A stretch of DNA of 64,000 bases. Source: Sinohyriopsis cumingii. Taxonomy: Eukaryota > Mollusca > Bivalvia > Unionida > Unionidae. The stretch's first letter is position 1; every line of letters begins with the position of its first letter. The translations under genes were made by a program, and so were the position numbers. This document shows positions 44,474-62,879 of the stretch, in pieces. A model generated the notes under the pieces. The model was not told the origin of the DNA. It did no database searches and was given only the letters and a program-made list of their open reading frames with translations. The stretch spans positions 27,397,721 to 27,461,720 of the forward strand of contig CM068841.1 in NCBI GenBank assembly GCA_028554795.2. The letters run 5' to 3'.

Positions 44474-44851
44474 CTATTTCTTTTCTAGAGATTTGGGTAG
44501 CCCTGAAAAGGGCTGTTTGTTTTTGAACTCCAGTGACACCTGGTTAATGATGGCACCTTCCAGCCTGGCACCACACACACATCTTCTTCCCCAGTCTCCT
44601 TTCACTCTTTTTTGGGGGAGAGCAGAGGCGGGATAACTGGCTTCAGAATCCCAATCTTCTGTCTCTGGGATTCTGAAATTTCCTCTCTCCTTTTCCTTCT
44701 CTTCTTTTTTTCTTCTTCCCTCCTCTTTCATCCATCCCTCTTCGACGATGGCCTCCGCGGCCAGTTCATTTAGTATGCGCCTGGCATATTCCAGGTGCAT
44801 CTGGAGTTCTAGAAGTTTAGCTAGTCTGGTGTTCATTCTGGTGTTGATCAA
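44474..44851 (-). CDS. Small accessory protein of the element (copy 1), unknown function
   Basis: 125-residue open frame. An N-terminal helical part (RLAKLLELQMHLEYARRILN) is followed by a Lys/Glu-rich segment (KEEGRRKKEEKEKERG) and a Cys-containing tail. The last residues are encoded by the histone-type stem-loop at 44499-44514, so either the true stop lies upstream in the transcript or this copy has drifted. Promoter words at 44899 and a TATA at 44885-44900 precede it. The gene and its flanks are a tandem copy of the unit at 45307. No known domain. Confidence 0.5.
   Translation of the reverse strand: MINTRMNTRLAKLLELQMHLEYARRILNELAAEAIVEEGWMKEEGRRKKEEKEKERGNFRIPETEDWDSEASYPASALPQKRVKGDWGRRCVCGARLEGAIINQVSLEFKNKQPFSGLPKSLEKK
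44499..44514 (-). terminator. Histone-type 3' stem-loop 1
   Basis: Minus strand: ACAAAC, then AGCCCTTTTCAGGGCT (6-bp stem, TTTC loop), then ACCCA. About 12-14 nt later comes CTCTAGAAAAGAAAT, resembling the histone downstream element that pairs with U7 snRNA. The flanks match animal replication-dependent histone mRNAs closely. Confidence 0.75.
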
Positions 44852-44884
44852 TCAACAAGGGTAGCTAGACTGCCAGGCTAGTTT

Positions 44885-44925
44885 CAATTTATACTAAAAG
44901 CGCGGACGTGAAGGAAAACATCCCC
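44885..44925 (-). promoter_or_regulatory. Promoter of accessory gene copy 1
   Basis: Minus strand: the shared upstream element (GATGTTTTCCTTCACGTCC, then GCGCTTT) at 44899-44925 followed at once by AGTATAAATTG (TATA). A worn second copy of the element lies at 44961-44984, about the same spacing as in pair 1. Confidence 0.75.
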
Positions 44926-45263
44926 CGAAACAAAAGTGATCTTACCTAGATCATAACCAAACAACGCGAAGACCTAAAAGAAACACTCACTCACTTTTTT
45001 TTATACTACCCATTATTATCCTAAAAAATGTTATTAAACAAATAATATACTATCCACATACGCAAAGCAATCAAATCAAACCCCAGATATAACTCTCCCC
45101 ACACGCCAAACAGCAAAAAACATGATCTTAATCTACTATCCACACAATCATATACACAAACACATACACTCACACTATTAAAAAGAGTCAGTGTTTATAT
45201 TCACACTACTCTTCATACACACATTGGCAAATCAATTGTTATTTCTTTTCTAGAGTATTGGGT

Positions 45264-45279
45264 AGCCCTGAAAAGGGCT
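45264..45279 (-). terminator. Histone-type 3' stem-loop 2
   Basis: Minus strand AGCCCTTTTCAGGGCT followed by ACCCA and then TCTAGAAAAGAAAT. It lies 28 nt after the stop codon of the gene at 45307-45687, the usual histone-gene distance. The stem-loop and about 180 bp downstream are nearly identical to the copy at 44318-44514. Confidence 0.8.
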
Positions 45280-45306
45280 GTTTTTTTTGTTTGCTATGGC
45301 AATCTT

Positions 45307-45687
45307 TTAGTTTCTAAGAATGCGACGTCCTCTGAGGATAGACTTTCTGACGATAGGTCTGCTTCTTCGGAAAGAGAAGAAGAACTCTTTGGTGTCGATA
45401 CGACAATCGACAAAGCCTCTGTCAGGTTCAGGTTGCTGCTGCTGTTGCTGTTGCTGCTCCCTCTGCTGTTTCTGAAGTCTGTACTTCTCTGTCCATTCTT
45501 CTTTCTCCCTGTTCACTTCTTCTCTGAAGAGCTCTTCTATCAGGTCTTCAGTGACTTTTAAGATTCTCACATTCTCTATCTCTTCTGGCTTCGGTATCAG
45601 ACTGTGTCTGACCCTATGCAAATTCACGTAGGCTTCGTTTAGCTTAGCTAGTTTGGAGCACATCTTCGTAGGAGGATGAGTCGGCAA
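45307..45687 (-). CDS. Small accessory protein of the element (copy 2), unknown function
   Basis: 126 residues. An N-terminal helix (KLAKLNEAYVNLHRVRHSL) is followed by an acidic helix (EDLIEELFREEVNREKEEW), a glutamine run (eight Q) and an Arg-rich C-terminus (SRPIVRKSILRGRRILRN), suggesting a nucleic-acid-binding or nuclear protein (inference). It is preceded by the shared promoter element at 45727-45754 and a TTTAAAG box, and followed by a histone-type stem-loop. It is the best-preserved of the tandem set. Confidence 0.6.
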   Translation of the reverse strand: MPTHPPTKMCSKLAKLNEAYVNLHRVRHSLIPKPEEIENVRILKVTEDLIEELFREEVNREKEEWTEKYRLQKQQREQQQQQQQQPEPDRGFVDCRIDTKEFFFSFRRSRPIVRKSILRGRRILRN

Positions 45688-45726
45688 TGGATGGTTAGAC
45701 TGGAGGCTACCCCCGGCTTTAAAGTC

Positions 45727-45754
45727 AAAGCGCGGACGTGAAGGAAAACATCCC
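45727..45754 (-). promoter_or_regulatory. Upstream element of accessory gene copy 2
   Basis: Minus strand GGGATGTTTTCCTTCACG then TCCGCGCTTT, identical over about 25 bp to the copy at 44899. The TATA-like word ACTTTAAAGC follows. Confidence 0.75.
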
Positions 45755-45985
45755 TACACGGTTTTCGAGCCGGAACGTTCGATGGGTGCTATGAGAGGTC
45801 AAAGAGCATGAATCAAGATTCCTATACTCAAACAAACCACAAAGGCATTTTTTTCTTCAAAACACAACATATTTTATTCAAAATCACTTAACACTAACAA
45901 ACAACTCTAACATTTTTAACAATAATACAACAATATAACATCAAACATTTTTTAAATACCAAACATTTTTTTTCCAACTCACATA

Positions 45986-46546
45986 TTATTTTGGACAAGG
46001 CTGACAACGTTGTGAATGAAATTGTGATTTCCACTGTTGGAAGTCATTAGGCCATTGAAGGACACTACATTTTCTAGCTTGAGACAAAAGATAAGCATAA
46101 TGGTCACAAAACCATCGATCTACTTTCATATCGTTTCTAGAAGAAGAACGAGGATCAAAATGAGTCACTAAATGTTCTAAGGAATAGCCCAGGCTGCGAT
46201 GATGCAGAAAATACACACAATATTGTCCACACACCAAGGAATCTGTGCCTTGTAATTTCACATTATTGAATCGGGTGGTCTGAGCATTTCTTCTCATAAA
46301 GCCAATGATATCGTCTTCCAAAGAAGGCAATCCATACAAATCGAAATATTCCACACATCCTTCTTGAGGAAAGTAGACGGCTACCCATTGGGTTCCTGGG
46401 AGATGACTGTCGTCCGTGTTGATCACATAAGCTAGATGGTCTTGAGGTTTACGATGAGGGAGTTCATCTTTAGTACAGACGACAGGATTCCAAGGAGCCG
46501 TGTATGAACTGTGGTTCAAAAGGTAAAAAAGCTCCCAGGTATCCAT
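45986..46546 (-). CDS. Adenain-like maturation protease
   Basis: 186 residues, close to adenovirus protease length (about 200). Catalytic-type residues are in place: His48 in DDSHLPGTQWVAVYF, the acidic position in YFDLYGLP (Asp69), the oxyanion Gln99, and Cys106 in VCGQYC. This cysteine protease family (Ulp1/adenain fold) cleaves capsid and core precursor proteins during virion maturation. It lies next to the capsid genes, as in other Polintons and adintoviruses. The frame is open throughout. Confidence 0.85.
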   Translation of the reverse strand: MDTWELFYLLNHSSYTAPWNPVVCTKDELPHRKPQDHLAYVINTDDSHLPGTQWVAVYFPQEGCVEYFDLYGLPSLEDDIIGFMRRNAQTTRFNNVKLQGTDSLVCGQYCVYFLHHRSLGYSLEHLVTHFDPRSSSRNDMKVDRWFCDHYAYLLSQARKCSVLQWPNDFQQWKSQFHSQRCQPCPK

Positions 46547-46567
46547 TGATTTGTGTGGTTTTCTTCT

Positions 46568-47071
46568 TCACAGGTAATAATAAGTCGTCAATTCGATCCT
46601 GACTTTTTGCTTGAAAATGTCTGACAAATAACCGTTTCTTCGCTTCGTCTCCTCACTCTGATTCAGGAGAGCTTCGATACGATGAATCTCTTGAGTGGCT
46701 AATGGTGGACAAGAGTGTTCACGCAAGTCTTTATACCACTGATGCAACACGACTTCGTCCGAGATGAGACTCCAAGCTTCGTCCAGATGCTCGTTCAATA
46801 TTTCTTCTTGACTCAGCATCAGGCATTTATCGTGTTGAATTTGACTGGGATGATCATTTTGACATCCATAGCACTCTTTTTTGATCAATTCCATCATTTT
46901 TTCGACGATGTGTTTGGCAAAACAGGAGACTAAATGGGCTTCTTGTTCTGGCCATCTTGACTTCATCATGACAACTTTTTCGTCTTTGTCTTGAGATTCA
47001 TCTTCCACAGTCTCCTCACATTCCATCTTCAAGGTTTCTCCACTAGGTAAAGAGGGATAACAGTCTTCCAT
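46568..47071 (-). CDS. Conserved element protein of unknown function with C/H motif
   Basis: 167 residues with an acidic N-terminus. The central ECYGCQNDHPSQIQHDKCLM block (C-x2-C-x3-HPSQ-x2-H-x2-C) looks like a small metal-binding site. I have seen the CYGCxxDHPSQxxH pattern in uncharacterised ORFs of invertebrate virus-like elements; the role is not known to me. It sits between protease and major capsid gene on the same strand with tight spacing, implying a late or assembly role (inference). Confidence 0.6.
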   Translation of the reverse strand: MEDCYPSLPSGETLKMECEETVEDESQDKDEKVVMMKSRWPEQEAHLVSCFAKHIVEKMMELIKKECYGCQNDHPSQIQHDKCLMLSQEEILNEHLDEAWSLISDEVVLHQWYKDLREHSCPPLATQEIHRIEALLNQSEETKRRNGYLSDIFKQKVRIELTTYYYL

Positions 47072-47076
47072 GGCTT

Positions 47077-48453
47077 CTAATAATCTAGAATGTCTTCTCT
47101 CAAACTGTTGATTTCTATCGTATTGTCGAATTCTGCATACAGGATGACGTTCACCGTTACATCAGGGACTCGGTCTGCAAACTGAATTTCCACACGAATC
47201 TGACCGGATTTTATAGGGTGGAAATGACCCTCGTCGCTGCCTTGGTCTGGAATGAAATCAAAAGCCCACAAAGCATAGCCTCCTGCATAATCGTCGTACG
47301 TTATGCCATGACTGGTGTTGGTTCCTAACTGTCCCGTGGCTTCGTACAGGGAGGTTCCTAACTGTCCCGTGGCTTCGTACAGGGACAAGTACGATCTCAA
47401 GTAATTGTTCACGGTAAAGTTAGGCTCAAAGGGTCTGGTACACAAGGCCTTGCCATCGCGACTGACTTCAATCTTGGACACGCCAAAGTGTCGAAACTCA
47501 AAAGGACTTTCGTTGTGAAGTCCATTGAAAGCTGAATTCCTGACGATAGCAACGATCAAACGTTTGGGTAACTGTCCTTGGAACAGATGATCTTCGATCA
47601 CGGATCGCTGTCCAGCAGGAATGGTGAACGTTTTCACTTCCACTCGTCGGATCGGATACTTGGCGGTGGTTCTGCTGAACGTCTGACTGACGTCGTTTCC
47701 CACTTTGGGTAACACTTCCACACGTCGTACGTAGAGCCTGGCTTCTTGGATGACAGTTTTGTATTCGTTGTTATGGGCCATCAAATGGAAAGCAGCAGTG
47801 CTACGATTTAGTTTCAGGCGGATATCCACCCCGTTCAGTAAATACTTTTCTTGTAACCACATGTCCAAATGCAAACGATCCATCAGTTCTAAACTACGTC
47901 CTTGCAGAATTTTATTTCTACGTGTGTTAAACCCCACATTGTGAGGATTGTCATCTTCTGTCAGGGCTGTATCGTTAAACGGGGTATCACCCGCTGTGTC
48001 AGGTTTCCATACTACACAAGCATCCAGATGAGTATTCTTGGCGTCTTTTCCGTACGTCAAGAGATTTTCCGGGTAGGCACGATACGGGTAAGTATCCATG
48101 CTGCTGCTGACAAGTTTGTTATTCAGGTACAAGTCCACTTCACTGAACAAGGAATGCATGATATTGTTGACAGGAGCTACTCTATCATTGGCTCCAGCAT
48201 TGGTGTTGTCCGCCGCTTTGATCACTTTGACTTTCAAGTACAGGTAACTGCTATTCAGATCGATGTAATCTTCGGGCTGACCTTTGATATCAAACTCGAT
48301 GGGAACTGAATCCGTCAAAGAGGAGACGGGATGAAATTCCACCCATTGGGATTCTTCCATGGTCATCATGGTGGGTGGCATGGCAAACAGATCCAGTTCC
48401 GACTTGGAACAAGCGCAAGACTCTTGGTGCATCATTCTTTCTCTGTGTCTCAA
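47077..48453 (-). CDS. Major capsid protein (double jelly-roll, hexon-like)
   Basis: 458 residues. The N-terminal WVEFHPVSSLTDSVPIEFD and DYIDLNSSYLYLKVKV, then MHSLFSEVDLYLNNKLVS, are the usual opening of Polinton/adintovirus major capsid proteins, where the first jelly roll starts. The second half has FRHFGVSKIEVSRDGKAL, and the end shows IQFADRVPDVTVNVILYAEF. It would form trimeric capsomers of an icosahedral shell in the nucleus. A 33-bp in-frame tandem repeat (47321-47386, SLYEATGQLGT twice) lies in the C-terminal third. The frame is open from end to end. Confidence 0.9.
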   Translation of the reverse strand: MRHRERMMHQESCACSKSELDLFAMPPTMMTMEESQWVEFHPVSSLTDSVPIEFDIKGQPEDYIDLNSSYLYLKVKVIKAADNTNAGANDRVAPVNNIMHSLFSEVDLYLNNKLVSSSMDTYPYRAYPENLLTYGKDAKNTHLDACVVWKPDTAGDTPFNDTALTEDDNPHNVGFNTRRNKILQGRSLELMDRLHLDMWLQEKYLLNGVDIRLKLNRSTAAFHLMAHNNEYKTVIQEARLYVRRVEVLPKVGNDVSQTFSRTTAKYPIRRVEVKTFTIPAGQRSVIEDHLFQGQLPKRLIVAIVRNSAFNGLHNESPFEFRHFGVSKIEVSRDGKALCTRPFEPNFTVNNYLRSYLSLYEATGQLGTSLYEATGQLGTNTSHGITYDDYAGGYALWAFDFIPDQGSDEGHFHPIKSGQIRVEIQFADRVPDVTVNVILYAEFDNTIEINSLREDILDY

Positions 48454-48743
48454 TAATCGAAAACGTCTAAGTCTCGAACAGTTCTTCTTTTCTTTGTCTT
48501 TCTAGCTTTAGACGTGTGAAGTCTGGTGAAAGGGTGTTTTCTTCGTCGTCTCTTTCTGCCTTGTCCTTGCTGAATGCCTGACTCGGTAGCGTGCAGGGCA
48601 TTTATAGGTGTTTCTCGTCGGCCTAAAAGGTCTTTACCCGTTTGCAGCAAGACATTTTTGCCTGCCCTCAAGAAAGCTTCTTTGGGGTTTTGTTTGTCGA
48701 TGATGACATTTTGGAGAAATTCTTTGCTTTGCGTCAGTGCCAA
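48450..48743 (-). CDS. Basic core/minor capsid protein
   Basis: 97 residues; the start overlaps nothing and the end touches the start of the capsid gene (4-bp overlap). The first half is helical; the second half is strongly basic (GRKRRRRKHPFTRLHTSKA, KTKKRR), like DNA-binding core or pVI/pVII-type proteins of adenovirus relatives. Exact counterpart not assigned. Position between penton and hexon genes matches minor capsid or core genes in adintoviruses. Confidence 0.6.
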   Translation of the reverse strand: MALTQSKEFLQNVIIDKQNPKEAFLRAGKNVLLQTGKDLLGRRETPINALHATESGIQQGQGRKRRRRKHPFTRLHTSKARKTKKRRTVRDLDVFDY

Positions 48744-48746
48744 ATC

Positions 48747-48875
48747 TTACAAGGCGTGCAATCCACGTGTCACCACCGGTTTCAACATCGGGGCCACCGA
48801 ACGAAAAGCCGATTTTAACATATCTCTTAAACCGTGTCCTCGCTGTCGACCAACCCCTCTGTACACTGGATACAT
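48747..48875 (-). CDS. Mu/pX-like short core peptide
   Basis: A 42-residue frame starting MYPVYRGVGRQRGHGL and ending in a hydrophobic-basic tail (MLKPVVTRGLHAL). The YRGxGRQRGxGL opening is a motif I associate with the small basic or membrane-active peptides of Polinton and adintovirus capsids (pX or pVI-like). It is cleaved or packaged in relatives; here the role is inferred. It starts 3 bases upstream of the next gene's start region and lies just after the penton gene. Confidence 0.6.
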   Translation of the reverse strand: MYPVYRGVGRQRGHGLRDMLKSAFRSVAPMLKPVVTRGLHAL

Positions 48876-48889
48876 GACTTACGAGTCGT

Positions 48890-49811
48890 GAGAGAACCGT
48901 TTTCGAAAATGGAGTTTCACCGTGACTTTTCCTTTGGTGAATGGAATATTTTGTCCCAGATCTCCTTTTATAGCAATGTTGACCGTGTCCAAATACGACT
49001 TACTGACAGGCAAATAGTGAGGATGTACAAATTAGCGGTGAACGTGGTAAGTGTTTCCACCTTCCTCGTCAGCGATCGTGGCAGAATCCACTTTGAAAGG
49101 AATGACACGCAGTAACGGCACAGAGTTGTGTCCCACCACGTTGTACTTCACCACATCGGAGTATACAAACATCAAATTCAGTCCTTGGTTCAGTTCTACC
49201 GGGGTACGAAATAACTTGCTAAAAGACTCGTTGTCGTAAATGACTGCTGATTGGTCTTTTTGTTGTTCTACGTGCTTCCTCAGCTCTATGTCCCCGCCCA
49301 ACATGTTAAACAATTCAGGACAAAATAAGAAAGACATGATTTTACTGTCAGAAAATTTCATCAAGAAGCGACGAGCTGTTTTGTGGTACTCCAGGGTGAC
49401 ACTTTTTTTGACACTTTCCAAAGCTTTCAGAAACACGACATTAAGTCTGGAGGTAATGGTGCTGACCAAATGTTGACCACTAAAATAATAGCCTGGGGGA
49501 ATAAACAAGTGGTAGGACCACTTTTGAGTTTTGTCATCATAGGTTTTGTGATCATATTTGACATAGGTATTCAAGTACTTTTGCAATGGCTCGTCCTGAA
49601 CTTCCACCGTAAAAAAATTTTGATTAGGAAGAACATTGAGGACTTGGGTTGGGTGAATGATTTCTACCACAGCCACTTCCCAATGGGCTTCGTGATCGAA
49701 TGGGATGGCCTGAGGAAATTTGGCCATGTAACAGCACAACATGTTGTTGGGAAACACCTCCATGGAACTGTCACTGGGTAAGGTTAAGTAAAATTGGTTT
49801 TGGTGACTCAT
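48890..49811 (-). pseudogene. Penton-base-like (single jelly-roll) protein, broken
   Basis: Begins MSHQNQFYLTLPSDSSMEVFPNN, with an HWEVAVVEIIHPTQVLNV block, then FIPPGYYFSGQHLVSTIT, typical of Polinton/adintovirus penton proteins that occupy capsid vertices. Similar sequence continues to the low-coordinate edge given. It is upstream of the core and hexon genes, the usual place. About one break. Confidence 0.75.
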
Positions 49812-50224
49812 AATTCCAGAGTTCTGTGGCTGTCCGAGGGGTTACTGGACGTCAGAGGCGTGTCTCCGCCCAAAATAGGGTTGTGGTTGTTGTTGTTGGA
49901 TTGGTGACTGGCACTGGACACAAGGTTCCCGTGGTTCCCGTTCGAGGTGAATTTCAGGGAGGGATTAGGAAGCAGGTAACCGATGCAACTGCTCAATAAA
50001 ATGGTCCACAATTGTTTGTCTTCTTGTTGCAAACTCAAATTGGCAATGGCTGCCCCGATGACACAATACACCACGAAGATTTGGCAGAAAAAGACGATTT
50101 GAGTTTTAGGCACACGTTCTCCACACCACACCCACAAGGGTTGTTTCTGTAAATCTTGCAGAGAAGAACTCGGTGAAGGAGTGGTCGACGTAGCTGCGTC
50201 TGTGTGAAAGGGCATGATGGTCAC
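49808..50224 (-). CDS. Two-transmembrane-segment protein
   Basis: 138 residues with two hydrophobic stretches, about residues 43-63 and 71-88, separated by a short charged loop (SLQQEDKQ). The N-terminus is Ser/Thr/Pro-rich and the C-terminus Asn/Ser-rich. Small two-TM proteins recur between integrase and penton genes in adintovirus-like elements; the role is unknown, perhaps an internal membrane or host-entry function (inference). It overlaps the neighbouring genes by four bases at each end. Confidence 0.6.
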   Translation of the reverse strand: MTIMPFHTDAATSTTPSPSSSLQDLQKQPLWVWCGERVPKTQIVFFCQIFVVYCVIGAAIANLSLQQEDKQLWTILLSSCIGYLLPNPSLKFTSNGNHGNLVSSASHQSNNNNHNPILGGDTPLTSSNPSDSHRTLEL

Positions 50225-51341
50225 TTCTTTCTATAGTCGATGACTTGCGAAGCGTCGATCCAAGAATCAAAACTGGGTGGATATCCTTTCCAACGTACTT
50301 TGACTTCTTTGACACGTTGTTTTCCCACTTTACGGGCTCTGCGTTCGAGAATGCTTTCGATGTCGTACACGTCGTCTTCTTTTTTGGTGACACGTTGTAA
50401 CTCGGGAAAATAGAACGTTCCTTTGAGCACTTCTCCGTTCATGTCTTCTAATTTATAGATGACAGGATCACGGCCATGCACTCGTCCAGTGACACGAAAC
50501 AATTCGGTCGTCCAGTTAGGTAAGTAACCTTTGTCGAAAGTGCGTTTGGTTTTGTCAATGCGTACCCAATCTCCCACGGTCAACACTCCACTTTTCTTGG
50601 GGACAGCCCTCGTCGGGGACGTACCAAACAGGCGCTCAAACACCAGCACTTCGTTGTCGGGAGTCACTTCTTGCGGAGCACGTCCAATGCTTCGATGGTA
50701 AGATTGGTTGTACGCTTGCACCAGGTGTGGTAAGATGTCGATGTACTTCAGAGTGTGGTGATGCGTAAAATATTTCCACATGCGTTCTTTCAAAGTACGT
50801 TGAAAACGTTCCACGATGCTGGCTTTGGTTTCGGGATTCTCGGTGGTAAAAAAATGAATGTCACGTTTCTTTAATTCTTTTTGGAAAGCTTGGTTCAGAA
50901 ATTCGGTGCCTTTGTCCGTTTGCCATCGAAGAGGGTGACGACCTTTGTTTCAACACTCGTTGCAGAGCTCGCACTAATTCACTGCTCGATTTGGACTCAG
51001 GCAAATTTGGAAAAGACGTCGATGACACAAAACAAATATTTGTATCCGCGATTGTAGCTAGCCAAATGAGAGACATCGGCTAAATCGGCTTGCCATTGAT
51101 GATCGATGCCTTCCACTAGGGTGCGACTTCTGGAAAACTTGCGTCGAATGGGTTTGTGTAAAGTGTAAGTAGCTTGTTCTTGCAACCATCGTTGCACTTG
51201 AGGTAAACGGAGACTTTTCAGTCGAGTTCTGGCAGCACGATACAATTTTTGAACTCCTGCGTAACCTGCAGGATGGGAGGGATCGTAGTAAATGCTGGCT
51301 AACACCTTGTCCGTTTTTTTGTGTGTTAATAAGTCACCCAC
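50221..51341 (-). pseudogene. Retroviral-type integrase with chromodomain, broken
   Basis: Order along the minus strand: zinc-binding-like N-terminal helices, the rve core starting at DHQWQADLADVSHL (first catalytic Asp), a KxxERFQRTLKERMWKYF block (catalytic Glu), and a C-terminal chromodomain (VKVRWKGYPPSFDSWI). Polinton integrases have this architecture; they insert the element, usually with 6-bp target duplications. About two breaks. Confidence 0.85.
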
Positions 51342-51392
51342 TCTTCGGTGATGCTACTTTGGGTGGGTCGAAAGGGTGGTTTGGAAACGGAT

Positions 51393-51989
51393 TTACGTGT
51401 CCGATGGGATACGGGAGTAGAAGTCAAAGGTAGTGGTGGTGGTGGAGGTGGCAATGGAATGGCTTTGGTCTTCTTGTCTTTTTTTCACTTCTGGTTTCCC
51501 TTCTTTCTTTTTCACTTCTGTCGAAGGAGGAGTGGACATCATCTTTTTAACCCAAGCTTTCATTTCTTCTCGTTGGGGTGTGGGGGACGGGGTCAACAAG
51601 GATACTGCAATCTTACTAGACATGGGAGCTGCTGACGGTGTTTGAAACACTTCTCGTATCTCTTCTTCCTCAGGTCTTCGTGGGGTAGCATCTCTGGGGG
51701 TCCTTGGGGATGGTAGTAGTGGTGGTGGTGGTAGTGATGATGGTGCTGAACTTTTCATCAAGGTCTTAAAATCTTTCAGAGTGGGTAGAGCTGTTTCGTC
51801 TAAAGCTGTCTGGTGAAAGAGTTGCAGTCGTTGCAAGAGTTGACCGTACTTTTGGGATTTTTCTGTTTCGGACAAATCTTGGCGATCCATCAAGGACTGT
51901 AATTCGTGTTGTAACTGGGACATCTCACTCAGATGGGGATTGGGAGGTAAATGCGGCGTGCGTTGTTCTTGCCAACGATGGTATTCCAT
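51393..51989 (-). CDS. Proline-rich protein of unknown function
   Basis: 198 residues. An N-terminal helical part (SEMSQLQHELQSLMDRQDLS) is followed by long Pro/Ser/Lys-rich low-complexity sequence. No domain recognised. A TATA-like AAGATAAAAAGG at 52076-52087 lies about 90 bases upstream. It sits where minor structural proteins lie in relatives. Possibly a scaffold or core protein, but that is a guess. Confidence 0.45.
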   Translation of the reverse strand: MEYHRWQEQRTPHLPPNPHLSEMSQLQHELQSLMDRQDLSETEKSQKYGQLLQRLQLFHQTALDETALPTLKDFKTLMKSSAPSSLPPPPLLPSPRTPRDATPRRPEEEEIREVFQTPSAAPMSSKIAVSLLTPSPTPQREEMKAWVKKMMSTPPSTEVKKKEGKPEVKKRQEDQSHSIATSTTTTTFDFYSRIPSDT

Positions 51990-52039
51990 CCATCGTTAGT
52001 AAGGCACTAAAGCTAGTTTTCGTCCTTCCATGGGATGTC

Positions 52040-52531
52040 AAGGGTCGATTCTGAGATCTTGGGACGTCAGAGGGCCTTTTTATCTTGCTCCCACCAGTCC
52101 TCCCAACATGGTTCCCAAGACTCCTTTCAGTAAGGGGCCTAACAAGAGTGGTAAAATTCCTCCACGTTGGACCAACATCTTCTTTTTTTGTCCAAGAGGA
52201 TTTTCTTTTGAACCATTTGGCGAAGAACGTGACGATGTTTGCCTAAGCATTGTTTCTGGTGTTTGGACAAAGGGATCGTGCCTTTCAAGACGTTCAAACA
52301 ACATTCGTACACGGTATCGATGACCTCTTTGGAAGCTGTTTGAATGAGTTTTTTTCGTAGGGGTTTCGAAGCTTTGGACAGGACAGATAACATGTCCCCA
52401 TATTTGACTAAACGTGGTGGCAGTCCTTTCCTTTTCTTTCCTTGGGGTTGTTTAGAAGAGGGATGTTTTCTGGAAGGTAACATCTTTGAATCTTCAGGAG
52501 CACCAAAACACTGATACCCCGACTTGGTCAC
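52040..52531 (-). pseudogene. Conserved minor-capsid-like module, copy 1, broken
   Basis: The reading contains LPPRLVKYGDMLSVLSKAS, a CCLNVLKGTIPLSKHQKQ block, and a C-terminal hydrophobic glycine-rich piece (RGGILPLLLGPLLKGVLGTM). This order (basic N-terminus, cysteine helix, K-rich hinge, QxGG-type hydrophobic tail) is common in Polinton-type elements. Its role there is unproven; a membrane-active or minor capsid function is an inference. About one break. A TATA-like AGTATAAAAAAAGG is at 52535-52549. Confidence 0.55.
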
Positions 52532-52541
52532 ACACCTTTTT

Positions 52542-53550: not shown

Positions 53551-53564
53551 TTTTGTGAGTGAAG

Positions 53565-54336: not shown

Positions 54337-54350
54337 GAGTTTATATACTT
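54337..54350 (-). promoter_or_regulatory. TATA box of the packaging ATPase gene
   Basis: Minus strand AAGTATATAAACTC, followed by a probable start region and the ATG at 54293. It decides between that ATG and the longer frame that begins at 54398. Confidence 0.65.
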
Positions 54351-54556: not shown

Positions 54557-54979
54557 TCAGGCATGTCCACGACAGTCCTGTCCTGGGTGACGGGTTCTTT
54601 TGGCACCGTCACTAACACGGGTTGAAAAGTAACTTTTTTCCTTGAACAACTCTCGTGCATACTGGGCCACTTCTTGGGTCCAAGCCTCAAAACCCCCATT
54701 TTTCCAGTCACGGACATCTGTCCAGTGGGAGAGTAAGTCACAAGCTACACACACATCGTCATACACGTCTTGGGTAGCTAAAAGTTGACGAATCTTTTTT
54801 TCCTGTTGAGGCCGAGAAGTATCCAGATGAAAACGTAAGGCTTTGAGCAAAAGAAGTCTTTCATGAACATTTAAAGGCACCACTTTCATGTTGAATGGGG
54901 TCGTAAATTCTATTCGTAAAGAGTCCACAAGGAATCGGCTGGTAAACGAAATCCCAGAAAACAAGTCACTAAGACACAC
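54557..54979 (-). CDS. Element protein of unknown function
   Basis: 140-residue frame, partly overlapping others. The middle (VPLNVHERLLLLKALRFHLD, TQDVYDDVCVACDLLSHWTD) is helical with a Cys pair; no family recognised. It lies between ATPase and IAP genes. Another same-strand frame at 54376-54741 overlaps it; which is real is not certain, and the region is probably broken. Confidence 0.4.
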   Translation of the reverse strand: MCLSDLFSGISFTSRFLVDSLRIEFTTPFNMKVVPLNVHERLLLLKALRFHLDTSRPQQEKKIRQLLATQDVYDDVCVACDLLSHWTDVRDWKNGGFEAWTQEVAQYARELFKEKSYFSTRVSDGAKRTRHPGQDCRGHA

Positions 54980-55335
54980 ACTATGCGTCGTCCCAAATTG
55001 ATTGGATACAGTTCTTGTATTAATTGATGGTAATGATCCACGGTTTGAATATGGTCATTGAGTTCCTTCCACGGAATCTGTTCAATCACATGTGATAAAA
55101 ACCTCGGCATGACAGCCTGTTTTTGTACTCTCTTTTTTTTCGGATGCAATACAAGTACTTTCTAGCCAGAGTTCGTTTAGGAGTTTCCTCTTCCGCTAAG
55201 TAGATTCCACGTAAAATATGTTGGTAATCCTTTAACTTGTCTCCCTCAATGCGTTGCTCTAGGTGAATCTCGAAGTAACCAAAATTATGAACATGTCGAT
55301 CATTGGCGACCTCAAAGTTTTGAAAAATGTCTGAC
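54910..55335 (-). pseudogene. Unknown coding remnant
   Basis: Protein-like patches on the minus strand: one with FGYFEIHLEQRIEGDKLKD (55200-55335) and one with HVIEQIPWKELNDHIQTVDH (54960-55149). A TATA-like GGTATAAAAGAAC at 55361-55373 lies just upstream. No family recognised; broken. Confidence 0.4.
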
Positions 55336-55517
55336 TACTGAAACAATTTCTGACGAATTAGTTCTTTTATACCATTCAGGTACCAGTGGTTCAAACACCG
55401 GTGACGTAACGGATGCAACTGTTCTTTACGCTTGACTTGTATTTTGACCAGCTCTCGGTAAATGCGTTCTCTCAACTCCACAGGCAAGCCCAAACTGTTC
55501 TCTTGTAAAGTATCCAT
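55335..55517 (-). CDS. Small protein, tandem copy A (60 aa)
   Basis: Starts MDTLQENSLGLPVELRERIY, then RELVKIQVKRKEQLHPLRHR, with an Arg/Lys/His-rich end. The first 30 residues are almost identical to the gene starting at 55752, so the two are a recent tandem duplication of about 235 bp. Function unknown. Helical and basic. Confidence 0.55.
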   Translation of the reverse strand: MDTLQENSLGLPVELRERIYRELVKIQVKRKEQLHPLRHRCLNHWYLNGIKELIRQKLFQ

Positions 55518-55583
55518 AAGTATATGCACCGTTTTCGGAATCCTTGGGTGGTGGCCAATAGCCTCGTTTACCTTTGTGCCTGA

Positions 55584-55752
55584 TGTAATATCCACTCATA
55601 ATCAGTCTTCTTATACTTTGGAACAGAGCATAATTTAAAAACGGATGAATAACTTTGCGTTTGCGTTTCACTTGTATTTTGATCAGTTCTCGGTAAATGC
55701 GTTCTCTCAACTCCACAGGCAAAGCACGAATGTTCTCTTGTAAAGTATCCAT
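55584..55752 (-). CDS. Small protein, tandem copy B
   Basis: Starts MDTLQENIRALPVELRERIY, then RELIKIQVKRKRKVIHPFLN. The open frame runs on to 55426, through copy A in another frame, so the original C-terminus is unclear; the low-coordinate limit given is where similarity to a copy-A-like tail fades. It begins directly after the BIR gene at 55753. Confidence 0.5.
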
Positions 55753-56004
55753 TTAAATATATTGTCCTACTAAGGGTAAGTAATGACAACTGGGAGACCA
55801 TCGAGCATGTTCCAGGTAGGCCGAATCTTGCGGTTCCCAGTGGTGAAGTGACACACCGCAACTGAAGCACTTGACTTTATCTCCTTCGCCCAAGTAGAAA
55901 AATCCGGCTCTGGCTAATTCTTCGGGGGTCGGTCCTCCCAGATACTTAGGCCATTTTCCTTTGAACGATCGAACACGATTTTCAAAGTTGCAGTATTCCG
56001 ACAA
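55753..56004 (-). CDS. BIR-domain (IAP-like) protein 1
   Basis: The 83-residue frame is essentially one BIR domain: RVRSFKGKWPKYLGGPTPEE, LARAGFFYLGEGDKVKCFSC, and an H-x6-C after CxxC (CFSCG...EHARWSPSC), the zinc-binding C2HC set. BIR proteins bind caspases or IAP antagonists and block apoptosis. A virus-like element gains time for replication from this (inference). Upstream frames to 56389 on the same strand probably belong to the same gene, which is then broken. Confidence 0.8.
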   Translation of the reverse strand: MSEYCNFENRVRSFKGKWPKYLGGPTPEELARAGFFYLGEGDKVKCFSCGVSLHHWEPQDSAYLEHARWSPSCHYLPLVGQYI

Positions 56005-56389
56005 ACGTACAGGGAACGAATATTTCGTCTTTCACAGGTTCGTTTCGATGAGGGGTGGGTGACATGGACAGGGGTTTGCTCAGGGCTGGATGACATCCGT
56101 AGGGAGGTAGACGTGAAGGTGGACATCCACACTGACCATGAAACCCAGTAAAGTGTCCAAGAGGACGAGCGACATCGCTTTCGCATCCCTCAGGTTTGAC
56201 ACGCACAGCATCACTTTCCATGATAGGGGTAGTGACACTAAAGTTCCCATGATGCTTTACGGCATCGCTGAGGTCACAACGTACAGCATCGTTCCCATCG
56301 CAAGGCTTACAATCGTATTCCACTTCAGAAGCCCCAAACTTGAATTGTGCCTTTCTGAACTTGTTTTGTGTTTCTCTGAAAGTATTCAT
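55982..56389 (-). pseudogene. Probable upstream part of BIR gene 1
   Basis: Open frame beginning MNTFRETQNKFRKAQFKFGA, 50 bases downstream of a TATA box (56441-56455). The later part is Pro/Cys/His-rich low-complexity. No domain. Its promoter spacing suggests this is where transcription of the BIR 1 gene starts. Confidence 0.4.
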
Positions 56390-56440
56390 CTTGTTCGCTT
56401 GGTTTTGGTAGTCACAATGAACTATCGATCTTGACCATTG

Positions 56441-56455
56441 CCCCTTTTTATACTA
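56441..56455 (-). promoter_or_regulatory. TATA box of BIR gene 1
   Basis: Minus strand TAGTATAAAAAGGGG; the ATG at 56389 follows after about 50 bases. Confidence 0.65.
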
Positions 56456-56897
56456 GTCGCAATGCAGTCTCAAGCTTGTACATCGTTCCTTTTATATGTC
56501 TTGTTTTGGAAGGTACCTTCTCTAAGGTGCCGTCATCATTGTACCGTAATGTCATGGGTGGAAAGGCCATAGAAAGGTAAGGGCAGTGCGGAGACCATCG
56601 AGTATGTTCCAGAATAGCTGAATCTTTATAGATGCATAGATCCATTCGTAACTTCAGTCCGCAAGCGAAACACTGTACTTCGTATCCCAATCCTGACTCA
56701 GGTCCCAAGTAGACAAATCCTGTTCTAGCTAAAACATGCGAAGAAGGTAATCCTTTCCTATCCGTAGGCCATTTTTGAAACGTGTCCAACCGACGGATAC
56801 AATCACAATAGTCAGGTAAGAAGACCGGAAAATGGTAGGGTTTGAACTTGGAGTTCTCATTGGATTTCTCACTCGATTCTTGCTGTGGCGAAGTCAT
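56448..56897 (-). CDS. BIR-domain (IAP-like) protein 2
   Basis: 149 residues. After an acidic/Ser-rich start comes a BIR domain: IRRLDTFQKWPTDRKGLPSS, LARTGFVYLGPESGLGYEVQ, CFACG...EHTRWSPHC, with the zinc ligands present. The tail (TLRYNDDGTLEKVPSKTRHI) is outside the domain. No RING is visible. It differs clearly from BIR 1, so the two are not a recent duplicate. A TATA box at 56931 precedes it. Confidence 0.8.
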   Translation of the reverse strand: MTSPQQESSEKSNENSKFKPYHFPVFLPDYCDCIRRLDTFQKWPTDRKGLPSSHVLARTGFVYLGPESGLGYEVQCFACGLKLRMDLCIYKDSAILEHTRWSPHCPYLSMAFPPMTLRYNDDGTLEKVPSKTRHIKGTMYKLETALRLV

Positions 56898-56919
56898 CCT
56901 TCTGGTGGTGGCTATCCTC

Positions 56920-59900
56920 TTACAACCAATGTTTTATACCGACGTGTCCATACGGTAAGGTGAAATGATTGGGAAGTCGCACTCGCTTCTGGTACACGAT
57001 TTGATAGACTTTTTCCAAGGGTCGACTGACAGTGTGATGAGTGGGTAAACGTACAATCTTGTTGGGTTGATAGGTGGTCACTTTAAAGTGTTCATCTTCT
57101 CCAGACTGCAAGGCTTCTTTCAATACGCCAAAGTTGACCACTTGACTGGTACGATAATTCAGAGTCAATCCTTTCACTTTGCACTCCCTGTGTACTTCTC
57201 TTTGTGGGTCCCGGTGTTGGTAGCCGTAATGTTTAGGACCGCCACTCGCGAAACTTAGAATCTTGTCGTCGGGGTGCTCGTCTGTCCAGGCTCCTAAACG
57301 GTCTCCTTCGATGTCAGGGTGCTGTTGACTCAGATGATGGATGTAAATGCAACTGTCCGTGTCAAAGTACAGGACACGTTCCCCTAACAGTTCTAAAGCT
57401 TCGTACAATTCTAAGCGAGCATGGGCTGTCACGTAAGCCGCAATGATGACATTTCCAAAGGGGTCGTCTTGTACAAAGTCCAGATCTTCTTCGTAATTGA
57501 CCAAGATCAAATTCTCGCGAACGACGTCCACGTGTTTCATGAATTTGGTTTTGTCATGAATCATCCGGAAGTAGCGGGAAGGTTCGGTCAAATATTTCGT
57601 CTTGGGTAAACACGGTCGTTGTGCCATTTTGCCCCACAAGCAATTTAACATCACTTTGGCAAACGATCGCCTGCCTTCGTTTTTCTCGATGTGATCTAAA
57701 GTGATGCCTTCTTGTGACCAGTATTTCTCTTTGAATTTAATTTGGTCTTCGGCAGTGTGACACCAGGACGGATAGCCACTGGCTTCTTGCTTTAGTTTCA
57801 GAAAGGCATCCACGTAGTCAGTGAAAATGCCTTTCTGCGTGGGGTCACCCTTGTGGTATTGTTGTGTCTTGGGAAAGTGGCAAATTTCGTACACTTCTAA
57901 CAGTTGGTATCCCATGTCCAAAGCTTTGAACAATTCTACGCTGACCCAGGTTCCCGTCAAGGTCCGTTCTTCCTGGGTGTGCTGACAAGATTGGTATTGG
58001 TTGCACGTTTCTGCACAAGTACGGCACAAAGGAAACATCAGTTTGCCTTGGCAATAGTGAGGTAAGACGGGATGGTACAAGTCCGTGGGAGGCAAAACAT
58101 TACACTTGATCAGACCTTCGTATTGTCGAATGTTTTTCAGGTCGATGTGTTTCGTCAACAATTGCGGGTGCCCTGCAGGAAAGCGACAATATTTGCACAC
58201 GTAGGGATACAGCGAACATACTTCCAAGTATTTCATTTCTTCTCCTTTCTCTTCGTCGGCTTGGTACAGCAAACATGTGGCATTGGTCCTTCCTCCGTAC
58301 AAACTATCCCTCGGGTTCAGCGGGTCCATAAACTGGTAACTTTCCACGACACGTTTAAACTCGGGATCGGTTTTCAAACGGTGATCGTATTCGTGTTCCC
58401 AAGGTTCCACCACTTGGTATCCTTGCTGTTCTAACTTTAGGCGTCGCTGACAAGTGGCCTGGTACAAATCTTCCATGGTTCGTTGTAAAAAGTGATTTTT
58501 AGTGTCACGGTCAGGGTAACAGACGGGACATCCGTGAAATAAGCAACCGTTAAATTCGTACACGATCTTGGGGTTTTCTAAGTCCCAGCCATCGACTGAA
58601 TGCGTTCCGATGGCCTTCTCGCCCCCTCCGTTGCGGGCATGCTGAATCCACTTGTCTTCTTTGTCACACAAGTAATGTAACCAGCGTCGGGCTTTGACCG
58701 AGTATTGACGTTTGACATAGTTGGTCGTTTGAGGACTGATGACAGCCACGGTGTTTTCAGGCATGAATCGTTGCCGGTACACTAAGGAACACGCTTTGGC
58801 AATGGTGCAAGCTTCTTTCAAAGGATCGACCCCTCCGTGTTCCATGAACAGTTCTCGAAATTTTCCACAGCAACGCCGTAAAATGTCCACGTCGGAACGA
58901 CAATACTTTAGCATTTCTTCCTGGAAGTCGAAAGGGTCTGAGGCGTGAGCTTGGTACCAAGCGTAGAAAGCTTCTCGTTGTTCGGTACGCATGTTGTCGG
59001 GGTCGTAGTCTTTAGCCTCAGGCAAATGGGGTAGAACGACGTGTTCATTGGCTTCCGTATTGAAAAAGTGTGGAAAGTACCCTTTAGCCATTTCTGTCAT
59101 TCCAAACGTTTTACGCATTCGACTCAAAGGCATGGCCAAGTAACTCATGGAATCTTTAAACTGTACTTGTCCCACTTGCATGAAAATGATTTTGGCTCCG
59201 TTCAAAGTGACTTTAGGACGTTCGGTGCCATGTTCCGTATAGTACCTCAAAAGAAACTGTCCATCGTATCCGGAGAAATTGTGAGCCATCACCGTGGCAT
59301 GGCGATGACAATCTCCGTAACGTTCGATGTCCTCTTGGCTCCACGTCTTGTCGATGGGGTCTAAGACCCATCGGGCGAAATCGGCTAGCGTGTTCGGTCC
59401 TCGAAAGATTTTTTCACGCCCTCCGGGAAGTTTGCTGCAGTGAGGGCAATTACTGTAAATAGGTTCTTGAATGCACTTTTCTCACGCTCGATGAGCTACG
59501 CAGAAATTAGGAGTGTGAATGCCGGTCTCTTGCATGCATTCGAAATCGAACAAGATGAAATTGCCTTTTTTATTCTTGTGACCGTCCTCTTTCTCTTTTG
59601 GGGGTTGGTATTTTTGCATGTAGCATTGGTGTTCCAAGTCCACGATGTGGTGACAAATGTGACATTTTTTCTTTCCTGAACATACGTGTGCCTTGGCATT
59701 ATTGGTACGTATGCCTTGGCCACACGTAGGGCACAATCTCAGGAGTGGACAAGCACATTTCTTCTGTGAACCTTGCGTCTTCAAATCTTGTTGGTAACAG
59801 GCAGGGGTGACAAACGTGCGCAGACAAGTTGAAAAATGCACTGCTTCTTGTCCTTCGCTCAGACAGGGTGAAGAGGCCAAACATCCTGAGCATTTCGATC

Positions 59901-60591
59901 CACAATGCTTGTGTTGCTCTCGATTGTTATAGCCATAGTCACATTTCTCAGAGTAATAGCTGTATCCCAGGAATGCAGTGATACTGGTAATGGTATCGAA
60001 ATGGTGATCGTGATAATAGACGTGAATGTATTTTCCATCGTCAAAGTCTTTCCCTCGAAACAACAGAGGCCCACGCATTTCTTGAGGGTGCACTTTCAAG
60101 GTGTAGCGTGGAGCTAAAATATCTTGCAATGTTTGCATTTCAGGAATGCCGCAGGGTGTGTCTGTGGACAGGCCAGCTTGTTGTAAGAGGAGTTCTGCTT
60201 CACTTCGTTGTTTGGTTCGGTCCGATTTTTGAATAGTTTTCCAGGCTCTTTTCCATTCTGCCGTGTCGTTTTTGTTGGCATAGGTTCTGCCCACCACGAT
60301 AGCCCTGGCTAAACACATCTGGTCTTGAGGGTTGTGAATTTGGGCGAGGCTCTTTTTGGTGATGCGAAGCTCGTTCACCAATAACACCTTATTGCGTTGT
60401 CCGGTCCCTTGAGGAGGTGAAACGTGGGTCATGTCCAGTGTGGCTTTTCCATCGGTGATGTTAAACTGGTCATTGGCTTGTTGTACGTGTTGAATCTTGT
60501 CCATTACTTTAGAAGCAGTCAATTCTGTAGGGGTGCTAAACTCGATCCAAACAGGGGATTTCAAGCCGTCGTGTTGTATGGAAAGTCTCAA
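56920..60591 (-). pseudogene. Protein-primed family-B DNA polymerase, broken
   Basis: Order along the minus strand: an N-terminal region with zinc-binding clusters (CGSKCSGC, CPTCGQG, CHICHH), then exonuclease motif I (FILFDFECM), motif II (HNFSGYDGQF), motif III (YCRSDVDIL), a TPR-type insertion region, and the palm with SLYPYVCKY, KVMLNCLWGK and YFDTDS. This matches Polinton/adintovirus PolB, which replicates the linear element from a protein primer. Total length about 1,200 codons is normal. About one or two breaks. Confidence 0.9.
56931..56940 (-). promoter_or_regulatory. TATA box of BIR gene 2
   Basis: Minus strand GGTATAAAAC, 34 bases upstream of the ATG at 56897. It lies inside the 3' end of the polymerase gene. 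Confidence 0.65.
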
Positions 60592-61102: not shown

Positions 61103-61513
61103 ATGGAAGAGACTACCGAAATCGAACGTTTCATCAGAGCTTTGCGAGGGGTCATTAGAAAATTTTCTTCAGACCAGCCGACGGACTACTCTCCTTCCTT
61201 GCGAGATAAAAGTGAAGATACTTGCTATATCTGTCAAAAGAAAGGGCATTGGTCTTTAGAGTGTCCAGACCGTCAAAAAAGAAAAAAAGGGGCTAGAAAA
61301 GACAAAAGTCAAGATACCTGTTATCACTGTCAAGAAAATGGACATTGGTCTCCAGATTGCCCAAAAAAGAAACAAGAGGAGCCAGAAGAAACGAGGGATT
61401 CTTCAGAGGAAGAAGAAGAGGAGGAAGAAAACAGCCAGGTGAAGAAAAAGAAACAGGAGAAAAAAAAAGAAGAAGGGAAGATAGTGAAGAGGAAGAGGAG
61501 GAAAAGACTGTGA
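61103..61513 (+). CDS. Double CCHC zinc-knuckle protein
   Basis: 136 residues. Two retroviral-type knuckles, CYICQKKGHWSLEC and CYHCQENGHWSPDC (C-x2-C-x4-H-x4-C), are joined by a basic linker. A long Glu run and a Lys/Arg-rich end follow (IVKRKRRKRL, nuclear-localisation-like). Single-stranded nucleic-acid binding is the family property; a role in replication or packaging is inferred. An AATAAA at 61634-61639 gives it a normal polyadenylation signal, unlike the neighbouring units that end in stem-loops. Confidence 0.75.
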   Translation: MEETTEIERFIRALRGVIRKFSSDQPTDYSPSLRDKSEDTCYICQKKGHWSLECPDRQKRKKGARKDKSQDTCYHCQENGHWSPDCPKKKQEEPEETRDSSEEEEEEEENSQVKKKKQEKKKEEGKIVKRKRRKRL

Positions 61514-61787
61514 CGGTGAAGAAATTGAAAAAACAGAGAGACTAATCAATGAGACAGAAGAAGTGTATAAACTTTTTAAAGTGTTCTGTTGCGAATTGTG
61601 AATTGTGAATTGGATTGTAAATATTTATAAAAGAATAAATTAGGTATAAAAAGGTAAGTGTCTTTTGGGTTTGATTTTAAAATAAGAACGTACACTCACA
61701 CATTCATACACACGTACTATAGGGGTAAAATGTTTTTTTTTTTTTTAGTTATTGGCTATTGAAAGACTCTTTTCGAGAGACGTGGGT

Positions 61788-61803
61788 GGCCCTGAAAAGG
61801 GCC
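61788..61803 (-). terminator. Histone-type 3' stem-loop 3
   Basis: Minus strand AAAA then GGCCCTTTTCAGGGCC then ACCCA: 6-bp stem, TTTC loop, histone-like flanks. About 14 nt downstream is CTCTCGAAAAGAG, whose AAAAGAG can pair with the CUCUUUU core of U7 snRNA. It ends the minus-strand unit that starts near 62430. Confidence 0.85.
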
Positions 61804-61919
61804 TTTTTTTGGTGTAAGGGTGAGTTTAAGCAATCAACTTTAACTGCCTTAAGCCTTTGCCACGGCCAAGGCCTACTTATGGACTGCGTACTGTTGATGA
61901 TGATGATTTGGTTGAAATC

Positions 61920-62401
61920 ACTAAGGGAGGCACGGTAGGCTTAGTCACAGGGTTGGAGTGTTTAGCTCGGGAAGGTCGTATTCTCTTCGGTCGTGATAAA
62001 GAAGTCTGATACATTTGTTTCAGACTTCTTAACTCCACTAAAATGTCTAACAGTACCGTGAGCGTTTGATTTTCACACCCTTATTTCTTTGCTACTGCTA
62101 CTTCTTCTTCTTGTTTTTTTTTCTTACCTCTTCTTCTTGCTGCTGTTGCTGTAGGAGAAAAGCTTGTTCCGCTTCCTTTTGCTGTTGTATAAATTTCTCC
62201 AATTCTTCTTTCTGCCTCTGTCTAAAATTCTCCACGTGCGGTAATGAAGGAGAAGGTGGCGATAGTTCCAAGAACAAATTCTTGCGAGGTAAGAAAATCC
62301 AGAAAATCCCAATTCACCTCTTCTGAAAGTAAGTCCGAGTTCCCTTGGGTGGTCTCCACTGCTGGTGCACCCCAATTGATCGTTTTCTGAGTTTCCGTCA
62401 T
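61920..62401 (-). pseudogene. Right-end minus-strand gene of the element, unknown function, broken
   Basis: Starts at the ATG at 62401 (MTETQKTINWGAPAVETTQG), then DLLSEEVNWDFLDFLTSQEF. Further on is a Gln/Glu-rich helical stretch (ENFRQRQKEELEKFIQQQKE) and Lys-rich sequence. Its TATA-like CTATATAGA is at 62449-62457, and its 3' end is the histone-type stem-loop at 61788. No known domain; the acidic aromatic start resembles transactivation-type peptides (weak inference). Broken. Confidence 0.45.
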
Positions 62402-62439
62402 GTTGAATAACTGTCGCATAGATTGACTGCACACAGGCG

Positions 62440-62610
62440 CTAGCGAATCTATATAGACCACGTGACGTCACAGACCGCTCTCTTCCGATTGGATGCGGGC
62501 TGACTGAATTTTGTAACGCGTGTTTGGATTGGTCAATGAACTCAATCCTTCCTCTACCTATAAATAAGCGCAGTTCACTGCATTGATTCACCTGTTCTCG
62601 GCGCCTCAAG
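62440..62610. promoter_or_regulatory. Divergent promoter with CRE, CCAAT and TATA motifs
   Basis: From left: TATA-like for the minus unit (62449-62457), overlapping E-box CACGTG and perfect CRE TGACGTCA (62459-62470), two inverted CCAAT boxes (CGATTGG 62486-62492, GGATTGGTCAAT 62525-62536), and TATAAATA for the plus unit (62559-62566). This motif set and spacing is typical of divergent histone gene pairs in animals. Confidence 0.75.
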
Positions 62611-62841
62611 ATGTGGACCACAGTCGAATCATCAACCCTTGTTTCTTCGATGATGTTCAGGACGGACATACTAATGTATGTCCGATCCAAGTGGACAGTT
62701 GTCGACAGGTCAGACAGCAGTCTGTGGATACGTAGAATCTATGTAGAACGTCAAGGATGCCTCCAGAGGACTCTGATTTATGGCCGTGCAGTAAGACGCA
62801 GCTTGAGGACAAGAAGATGCCACAGATGCCCTTTATGTTAA
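62611..62841 (+). CDS. Right-end plus-strand small basic protein
   Basis: 76 residues (MWTTVESSTLVSSMMFRTDI start; Arg/Cys-rich end RTRRCHRCPLC). It is 45 bases downstream of the TATA box and is followed after 24 bases by a histone-type stem-loop. It is not a histone. No family recognised; the C-terminal CxxC plus Arg suggests nucleic-acid contact (weak). The DNA contains two hairpins (62667-62686 and 62826-62847), so part of the region may act as RNA rather than protein. Confidence 0.4.
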   Translation: MWTTVESSTLVSSMMFRTDILMYVRSKWTVVDRSDSSLWIRRIYVERQGCLQRTLIYGRAVRRSLRTRRCHRCPLC

Positions 62842-62864
62842 GGGCATATTAACATAAATCCAAA

Positions 62865-62879
62865 GGCCCTTTTCAGGCC
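62865..62879 (+). terminator. Histone-type 3' stem-loop 4 (slightly worn)
   Basis: Plus strand CAAA then GGCCCTTTTCAGGCC then ACTCC; the stem has one unpaired C. The downstream element CTCTCGAAAAGAG is present and identical to that of stem-loop 3, which lies in the opposite orientation. Confidence 0.75.

Follow-up and report, generated by a model that had tools for sequence, protein, structure and literature searches.

The locus examined here raises the question of why a virus-like mobile element should end several of its genes in a signal that is the mark of the replication-dependent histone genes of animals, namely a 3′ end defined by a stem-loop and the U7 small nuclear ribonucleoprotein (snRNP). 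The window, that is, the whole stretch of 64,000 nucleotides (nt) of Sinohyriopsis cumingii that was analysed (contig CM068841.1, positions 27,397,721 to 27,461,720), holds one damaged copy of a Polinton, for which a first-pass annotation made from the letters alone had proposed histone-type 3′ ends. Our results make it highly probable that this multicopy Polinton bears five end-proximal accessory genes with the full histone pre-mRNA 3′ signal, which the host stem-loop-binding protein (SLBP) and U7 would process and which would limit their expression to S phase. The signal consists of a 16-nt stem-loop with a 6-bp stem and the loop UUUC, followed by a flank of ACCCA type and, at a near-fixed 14 nt from the stem, by a purine-rich histone downstream element (HDE).

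A search of the window with the pattern GCCCTTTTCAGGGC, allowing up to two mismatches and using shuffled sequence as a control, gave three matches without mismatch (44500-44513, 45265-45278 and 61789-61802, all on the minus strand) and a fourth with one mismatch (62866-62879, plus strand), compared with a mean of 0.16 matches in the shuffles, none of which held four (0/100). The Rfam family RF00032 recovers the same four places, the site at 61789 lying above its cut-off of 34 bits, and, with E allowed up to 5, detects nothing else in the 64 kb of the window; random scatter of the motif, which had been named as a sign against the proposal, is thus not seen there. All four stem-loops have the purine block CTCTMGAAAAGA downstream. 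With the model R1 they score 61.6-69.4 bits and the next-best site in the window 20.7 bits, a comparison that is partly circular because R1 was built partly from these sites; the RF00032 comparison is not circular. The positions of the stem-loops and their purine blocks, as first proposed, are therefore confirmed, and the claim of a common stem and common flanks holds for the three perfect stem-loops; the one at 62866 departs from it with an imperfect stem and the 3′ flank ACTCC instead of ACCCA. The signals and their genes in the window are the following.

44500..44513, minus strand: stem-loop of the LAKL-type gene (RF00032 32.1 bits, E = 2.5e-5; R1 69.4 bits, R1 being built partly from it; outer pair A-U at 44499/44514)
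44479..44490, minus strand: HDE-like purine block CTCTAGAAAAGA after the LAKL-type stem-loop
44474..44836, minus strand: LAKL-type accessory gene, whose frame departs from its relatives and reads through the stem-loop
45265..45278, minus strand: stem-loop of the CSK-type gene (RF00032 31.0 bits, E = 6.4e-5)
45244..45255, minus strand: HDE-like purine block CTCTAGAAAAGA after the CSK-type stem-loop
45307..45663, minus strand: CSK-type accessory gene, 118 aa from ATG, starting MCSKLAKLNEAY and stopping 27 nt ahead of the outer base of its stem-loop; gene and stem-loop recur in 6/6 other copies
61789..61802, minus strand: stem-loop of the TET-type gene (RF00032 36.9 bits, E = 4e-7)
61768..61779, minus strand: HDE-like purine block CTCTCGAAAAGA after the TET-type stem-loop
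61826..62401, minus strand: TET-type accessory gene (MTETQKT...), split over frames here; other copies have it open, at 183-196 aa
62866..62879, plus strand: imperfect stem-loop of the W76 gene at the inner end of the right terminal repeat (RF00032 23.3 bits, E = 0.048; R1 61.6 bits, R1 being built partly from it)
62888..62899, plus strand: HDE-like purine block CTCTCGAAAAGA after the W76 stem-loop
62611..62841, plus strand: W76 accessory gene (MWTTVESS...), 76 aa, divergent from the TET gene

The element that carries these signals is a Polinton, given its family B DNA polymerase (PolB), its integrase with chromodomain and, in other copies, terminal inverted repeats together with a 6-bp target duplication. 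In the window the polymerase gene lies in two open reading frames (ORFs; PF03175 E = 4.7e-38 on 56920-59292), and the integrase shows a Chromo domain (E = 1e-7) and a weak rve match in its split ORF (E = 0.048), which reaches E = 4e-10 in the distant relative L041, described below. The split ATPase gene matches Pox_A32 below the Pfam cut-off (E = 5e-4). The capsid protein has 788 homologues, and among the best 120 those named by organism come from bivalves, apart from one bacterial metagenome-assembled genome; these names point to a bivalve host. The double jelly-roll capsid family PF21738 is matched by one of 22 aligned capsid homologues and not by the window protein itself, for which a sequence comparison with PDB chains gave no match. 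A Pfam search of the frame at 45986-46546 returned no family, and we take it to be protease-like from its CGQYC motif only. In the host genome of 2.9 Gb, 92 capsid genes were scored (the best 92 of 29,523 candidates), most of them with an identical score of 910.3 bits, no stop and 91% identity to the window capsid protein; these equal scores and open frames suggest a recent burst of one lineage. The copy in the window begins at about 43.7 kb, where its left end is truncated, reaches its terminus at 63263 and is damaged, with split PolB, integrase and ATPase genes and two accessory genes out of frame. Its remaining main parts are given here.

45986..60591, minus strand: core gene array (protease-like gene, major capsid protein, second capsid candidate, split integrase, split ATPase, split PolB)
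43700..44030, minus strand: remnant of the outermost left gene, of DVEY type, its stem-loop and the left terminal repeat missing in this copy
62860..63263, plus strand: right terminal repeat with stem-loop, HDE, 44-nt tandem repeats and the terminus ...CCCACTTAACTACT

Adjoining the truncated left end, positions 40532-43267 of the plus strand hold an open frame of 911 aa in which a NACHT domain is recognised (E = 1.6e-16).

The arrangement is seen in full in other copies. Six of them, taken as rows 10, 20, 30, 40, 50 and 60 of the capsid match list regardless of stem-loops, were read over their two end regions, and once a spurious pattern row had been dropped from each left region (six in all) each copy shows five stem-loops, three at the left and two at the right, 30 in total. 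Those at the left follow genes of CSK, LAKL and MASN or DVEY type and those at the right follow the divergent TET and W76 genes; in 30/30 cases the stem-loop stands in sense orientation directly after the stop of one of these six gene families, 16-44 nt separating stop and stem. The AAAAG of the purine block begins 14 nt after the stem in 25/30, 15 nt in 3/30 and 13 nt in 2/30. All 30 score 50.5-69.4 bits, two extra weak matches reaching 18.3 and 14.9 bits, and the RF00032 search of the window places no stem-loop in the middle of the window's own copy. Five of the six copies are close relatives and not six independent witnesses, because they share the same capsid score. The proposal that genes end in these stem-loops accordingly stands for the other copies, where open frames stop before them, and fails in part for the window copy, which is left-truncated and partly broken. 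As a separate observation, a 332-aa open frame in L076 (1575-2570, minus strand), apparently a copy with an internal deletion, fuses the protease-like gene to the DVEY-type gene and stops 23 nt before a stem-loop.

The terminal inverted repeats open with the same signal. In each of the six copies the likeness of the left and right ends starts 6 nt before the outermost stem-loop and continues outwards (50-52/52 positions, then 102-104/104), and just inside that point the two ends differ (3-17/34), which therefore sets the inner edge of the repeat at the stem-loop; inverted repeats were found in 6/6 copies, with this inner edge in 6/6, and the outermost two stem-loop regions of each copy are nearly identical. 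A matching 6-bp target duplication, as expected of Polintons, flanks 3/6 copies, those in which the terminus pattern was found. In the window this pattern occurs once, at the right, which fits the lack of a terminal inverted repeat in a copy whose left end is gone.

This geometry lends itself to another explanation, namely that the signal serves to form poly(A)-independent ends and to terminate transcription before the host flank, the outward end genes stopping in the terminal repeat and S-phase control being incidental. Both terminal repeats do have an outermost stem-loop as their inner edge, so that outward transcripts would end inside the element, before host DNA. However, three of the five genes are not outermost and yet end in a stem-loop, and the histone pathway is active mainly in S phase (PMC9756948), so that timing would tend to follow anyway. 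We regard this explanation as possible, but rather doubtful.

The details of the signal were examined in a wider set, within which the reading of a histone-type 3′ signal can be weighed. The RF00032 genome list comprises the 75 of 589,472 first-look candidates that were scored; the 36.9-bit site of the window is not among them, and host histone genes may lie among the unscored candidates. Among 14 control genomes a match, below the cut-off, was found in one (Lactococcus lactis). Of the 75 listed loci 68 were analysed, and gene labels, ORFs or tblastn place all 68 in the element family. They yield 130 stem-loops (132 pattern rows filtered for a nearby AARA, minus two spurious), with the loop UUUC in 127/130, the 3′ flank ACCCA in 104/130 and AAAAG starting 14 nt after the stem in 126/130, at 15 nt in two and absent in two. 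The filter removed one extra sense-strand stem-loop with a changed block; of the other unfiltered rows that lack AAAAG, nearly every one is an opposite-strand reading of a palindrome already counted. The main stem types are GGCCCU/AGGGCC (99) and AGCCCU/AGGGCU (15), in which both sides of the outer pair change from G-C to A-U, and in an alignment of 14 sequences all 81 countable cells pair.

Because the 68 loci were found by their stem-loop, companion genes, those that were not the search match and whose C-terminus was reached by tblastn, were examined as well. The pattern finds a stem-loop in 57/62 of them (W76 16/16, TET 24/26, LAKL 17/20), and in the remaining five a degenerate version occupies that position; the distance to AAAAG is 14 nt in 53/57 and 15 nt in 2/57. 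Identity among companions is 0.94-0.99 in the stem-loop and 0.95-0.98 in the HDE, with 0.76-0.88 in the intervening spacer.

That the hairpins act as DNA or as general RNA structure, for instance as a terminal repeat, packaging or replication signal, with likeness to histone ends arising by convergence, seems very improbable to us: two of the five stem-loops do lie in terminal repeats, but the uniform sense orientation just after stops of six gene families, the agreement of loop, both flanks and HDE at a near-fixed distance with the histone signal, not required of a simple hairpin, and the RF00032 value of E = 4e-7 all speak for a histone-type 3′ signal.

The genes that carry the signal look coding, to judge from the ratio of nonsynonymous to synonymous substitution (dN/dS) among open frames, which is 0.12 for W76 (34 distinct copies, mean dS 0.80), 0.42 for TET (24) and 0.34 for MASN (only 4). 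Their products are small and by eye often basic or coiled-coil-like. The accessory proteins of this element gave no Pfam match above cut-offs, and Pfam named no histone among eight accessory proteins; core-histone motif words of four types are also absent upstream of the 130 stem-loops, in agreement with the first-pass statement that the adjacent genes are not histones. TET has 19 homologues, on short contigs without context. An AlphaFold model of W76 had a mean predicted local distance difference test (pLDDT) score of 50 and was not used.

Poly(A) signals and promoters bear on how these genes would be expressed. On the coding strand AATAAA follows the core array at 45878 (minus strand) and the zinc-knuckle gene at 61634 (plus strand), and the other hexamers fall within the core array or to the left of the stem-loop at 44500. 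On the sense strand the 350 nt that follow the CSK, LAKL and TET frames contain no A[AT]TAAA, and the stretch from W76 to 63000, where the scan ended, has none either. Among the 130 stem-loop regions, 13 have AATAAA in the following 200 nt, and the sequence mostly speaks against polyadenylation beyond the stem. Divergent CCAAT/TATA pairs are also typical of histone gene pairs. In 8/8 copies matching strict start patterns the TET/W76 promoter combines two CCAAT-type boxes and a TGACGT site with a TATA box towards W76, and a TET-side TATA box is present in 5/8; two CCAAT boxes appear in 6% of shuffles. The features concerned are these.

62402..62610, no strand assigned: TET/W76 divergent promoter region, with TATAAATA on the W76 side, two ATTGG (CCAAT) boxes and TGACGTCA
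61103..61513, plus strand: zinc-knuckle gene, with AATAAA at 61634 and no stem-loop, an internal contrast to the accessory genes
44153..44195, minus strand: promoter-like motif upstream of the left genes, with more copies at 44221-44263, 44888-44930 and 45718-45760

This last motif, ATGTTTTCCWTCACGTYYGCGC, has its four copies in the window within 44153-45760, upstream of the left genes with stem-loops, and occurs in 23/68 stem-loop loci.

More distant relatives extend the distribution of the signal. Six contigs from prokaryote assemblies encode a relative of the capsid protein, and one of them, L041, has a stem-loop (RF00032 35.8 bits, E = 8e-7). Binned as a Bacteroidia bacterium, it carries a Polinton with integrase and chromodomain, PolB and capsid, with 30% identity in the capsid and 40% in PolB. 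Its stem-loop stands 28 nt after an 89-aa C2H2 zinc-finger ORF, the outermost gene on that side, with imperfect short repeats outward; a homologue search with the zinc-finger protein found none. The five contigs without the signal are L039 (21 kb) and L040 (8 kb), both fragmentary by their ORFs, and others of 3.6-4.0 kb. Related elements, a check that the first-pass annotation had proposed, thus carry five stem-loops in each of the six copies chosen by capsid rank and one in 1/6 distant contigs. In L039, a Polinton fragment in a mussel-symbiont assembly, a weak match to the type-P1 twister ribozyme (11749-11813, plus strand; 28.9 bits against a cut-off of 67.2, E = 0.034) lies just downstream of the capsid gene.

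In IMG/VR three stem-loop patterns matched 38, 7 and 0 stretches, pairing was satisfied in 3/38, and none of those three has the purine block; the stem-loop model on 45 IMG/VR loci gave at best 29.1 bits (E = 0.0019, L116), again with no purine block. Scans of IMG/VR with PolB and with the major capsid protein alignment gave no confirmed relative, and a phage collection none.

Hardly any weight attaches to the idea that one captured histone 3′ end was spread by duplication within the element as a passenger without function: duplication did occur, as seen in the two left 3′ modules of the window, 90% alike across 250 nt, and in the near-identical outermost pair, and the six copies read include five that are closely related, but the spacer is less conserved than the stem-loop and HDE that border it, both members of the outer stem pair change, and the signal recurs on the zinc-finger ORF of a relative as distant as L041.

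Our preferred reading, the use of the host histone machinery by the accessory genes, nevertheless has several observations against it. Covariation supports one pair only, because a double change is found in 1/6 pairs and the other five never vary. Among companions the W76 ACCCA flank is poorly conserved (0.79), the TET stem-loop is conserved no better than the sequence just before it (0.949 vs 0.946), and identity 60-100 nt from the stem falls to 68% in W76 but stays at 84% in TET and 91% in LAKL. A[AT]TAAA occurs within 45 nt in 12/130 stem-loop regions, and the other five contigs with a capsid relative have no stem-loop at E up to 2. Finally, a search of the host genome for U7 with RF00066 gave 0 matches, as did the control genomes, and a U7-like pattern matched 201 times against 283 for its reversed control; of these 201 matches the 12 inspected include none that is U7-like or has an snRNA-like hairpin.

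On the other side, since related elements do carry the stem-loops, the motif is not strewn at random over the window and poly(A) hexamers are few, processing of the element transcripts by SLBP and U7 appears well supported as an inference from the sequence; the first two of these had been named in the first-pass annotation as the places where its reading of host histone-type 3′ processing could fail. In histone mRNAs cleavage falls 4-5 nt after the stem. By analogy, host SLBP and U7 snRNP would cut the accessory transcripts after ACCCA, 4-5 nt past the stem, host U7 pairing with GAAAAGAGA, and would give mRNAs without poly(A), while the core array of capsid and polymerase genes would use ordinary polyadenylation. 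From the known behaviour of the pathway we further infer a coupling to S phase: the accessory proteins would be made and kept when the element can use host replication, and would act early, preparing replication. In this regard, the zinc finger of L041 suggests a regulatory role for accessory proteins. We also lean towards the broader view that some Polintons have two classes of mRNA, a polyadenylated one from the core and an end-proximal accessory one made through SLBP and U7, and that this may be an old trait, spanning capsids about 30% identical.

If this holds true, histones would not be the only users of the histone mRNA pathway, which would offer a virus-like element a ready S-phase switch; use of the pathway on five non-histone genes and in terminal repeats would show that it can be hijacked, and would suggest how a self-synthesising transposon times accessory expression to host DNA replication. 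Transcripts ending in the stem-loop would be lost under poly(A) selection and visible in ordinary RNA data made without it. We found no paper joining histone stem-loops with Polintons, Mavericks or adintoviruses in a search that left subscription journals mostly outside, in line with the first-pass remark that no description in Polintons was at hand.

The 3′ ends of these genes resemble those of replication-dependent histone mRNAs in the stem, the loop UUUC, the A-rich flank on the 5′ side, the ACCCA-type flank on the 3′ side and the purine-rich HDE, and the genes are also alike in a stem-loop near the stop, continuous ORFs and mostly no AATAAA. Unlike histone genes, the genes of the element are not histone-like, lie in a mobile virus-like element and include one pair whose signal is built into terminal inverted repeats. 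With adintoviruses the element has in common a broadly similar set of genes for PolB, a chromodomain-bearing integrase and a capsid protein. The text that defines these viruses (PMC11071296) gives them a PolB with an N-terminal OTU-like domain and a hexon recognisable by BLASTp and reports zinc-finger ('Ziftr') genes in some; the term 'stem-loop' does not occur in it, and its two uses of 'histone' both concern a 'Histoid' protein. Like other Polintons or Mavericks, the element has a family B polymerase, an rve integrase with chromodomain and terminal inverted repeats flanked by 6-bp target duplications, and one distant relative of its capsid protein matches a double jelly-roll family; what sets it apart from them are five accessory genes with histone-type 3′ ends and terminal repeats that open with a 3′-processing signal.

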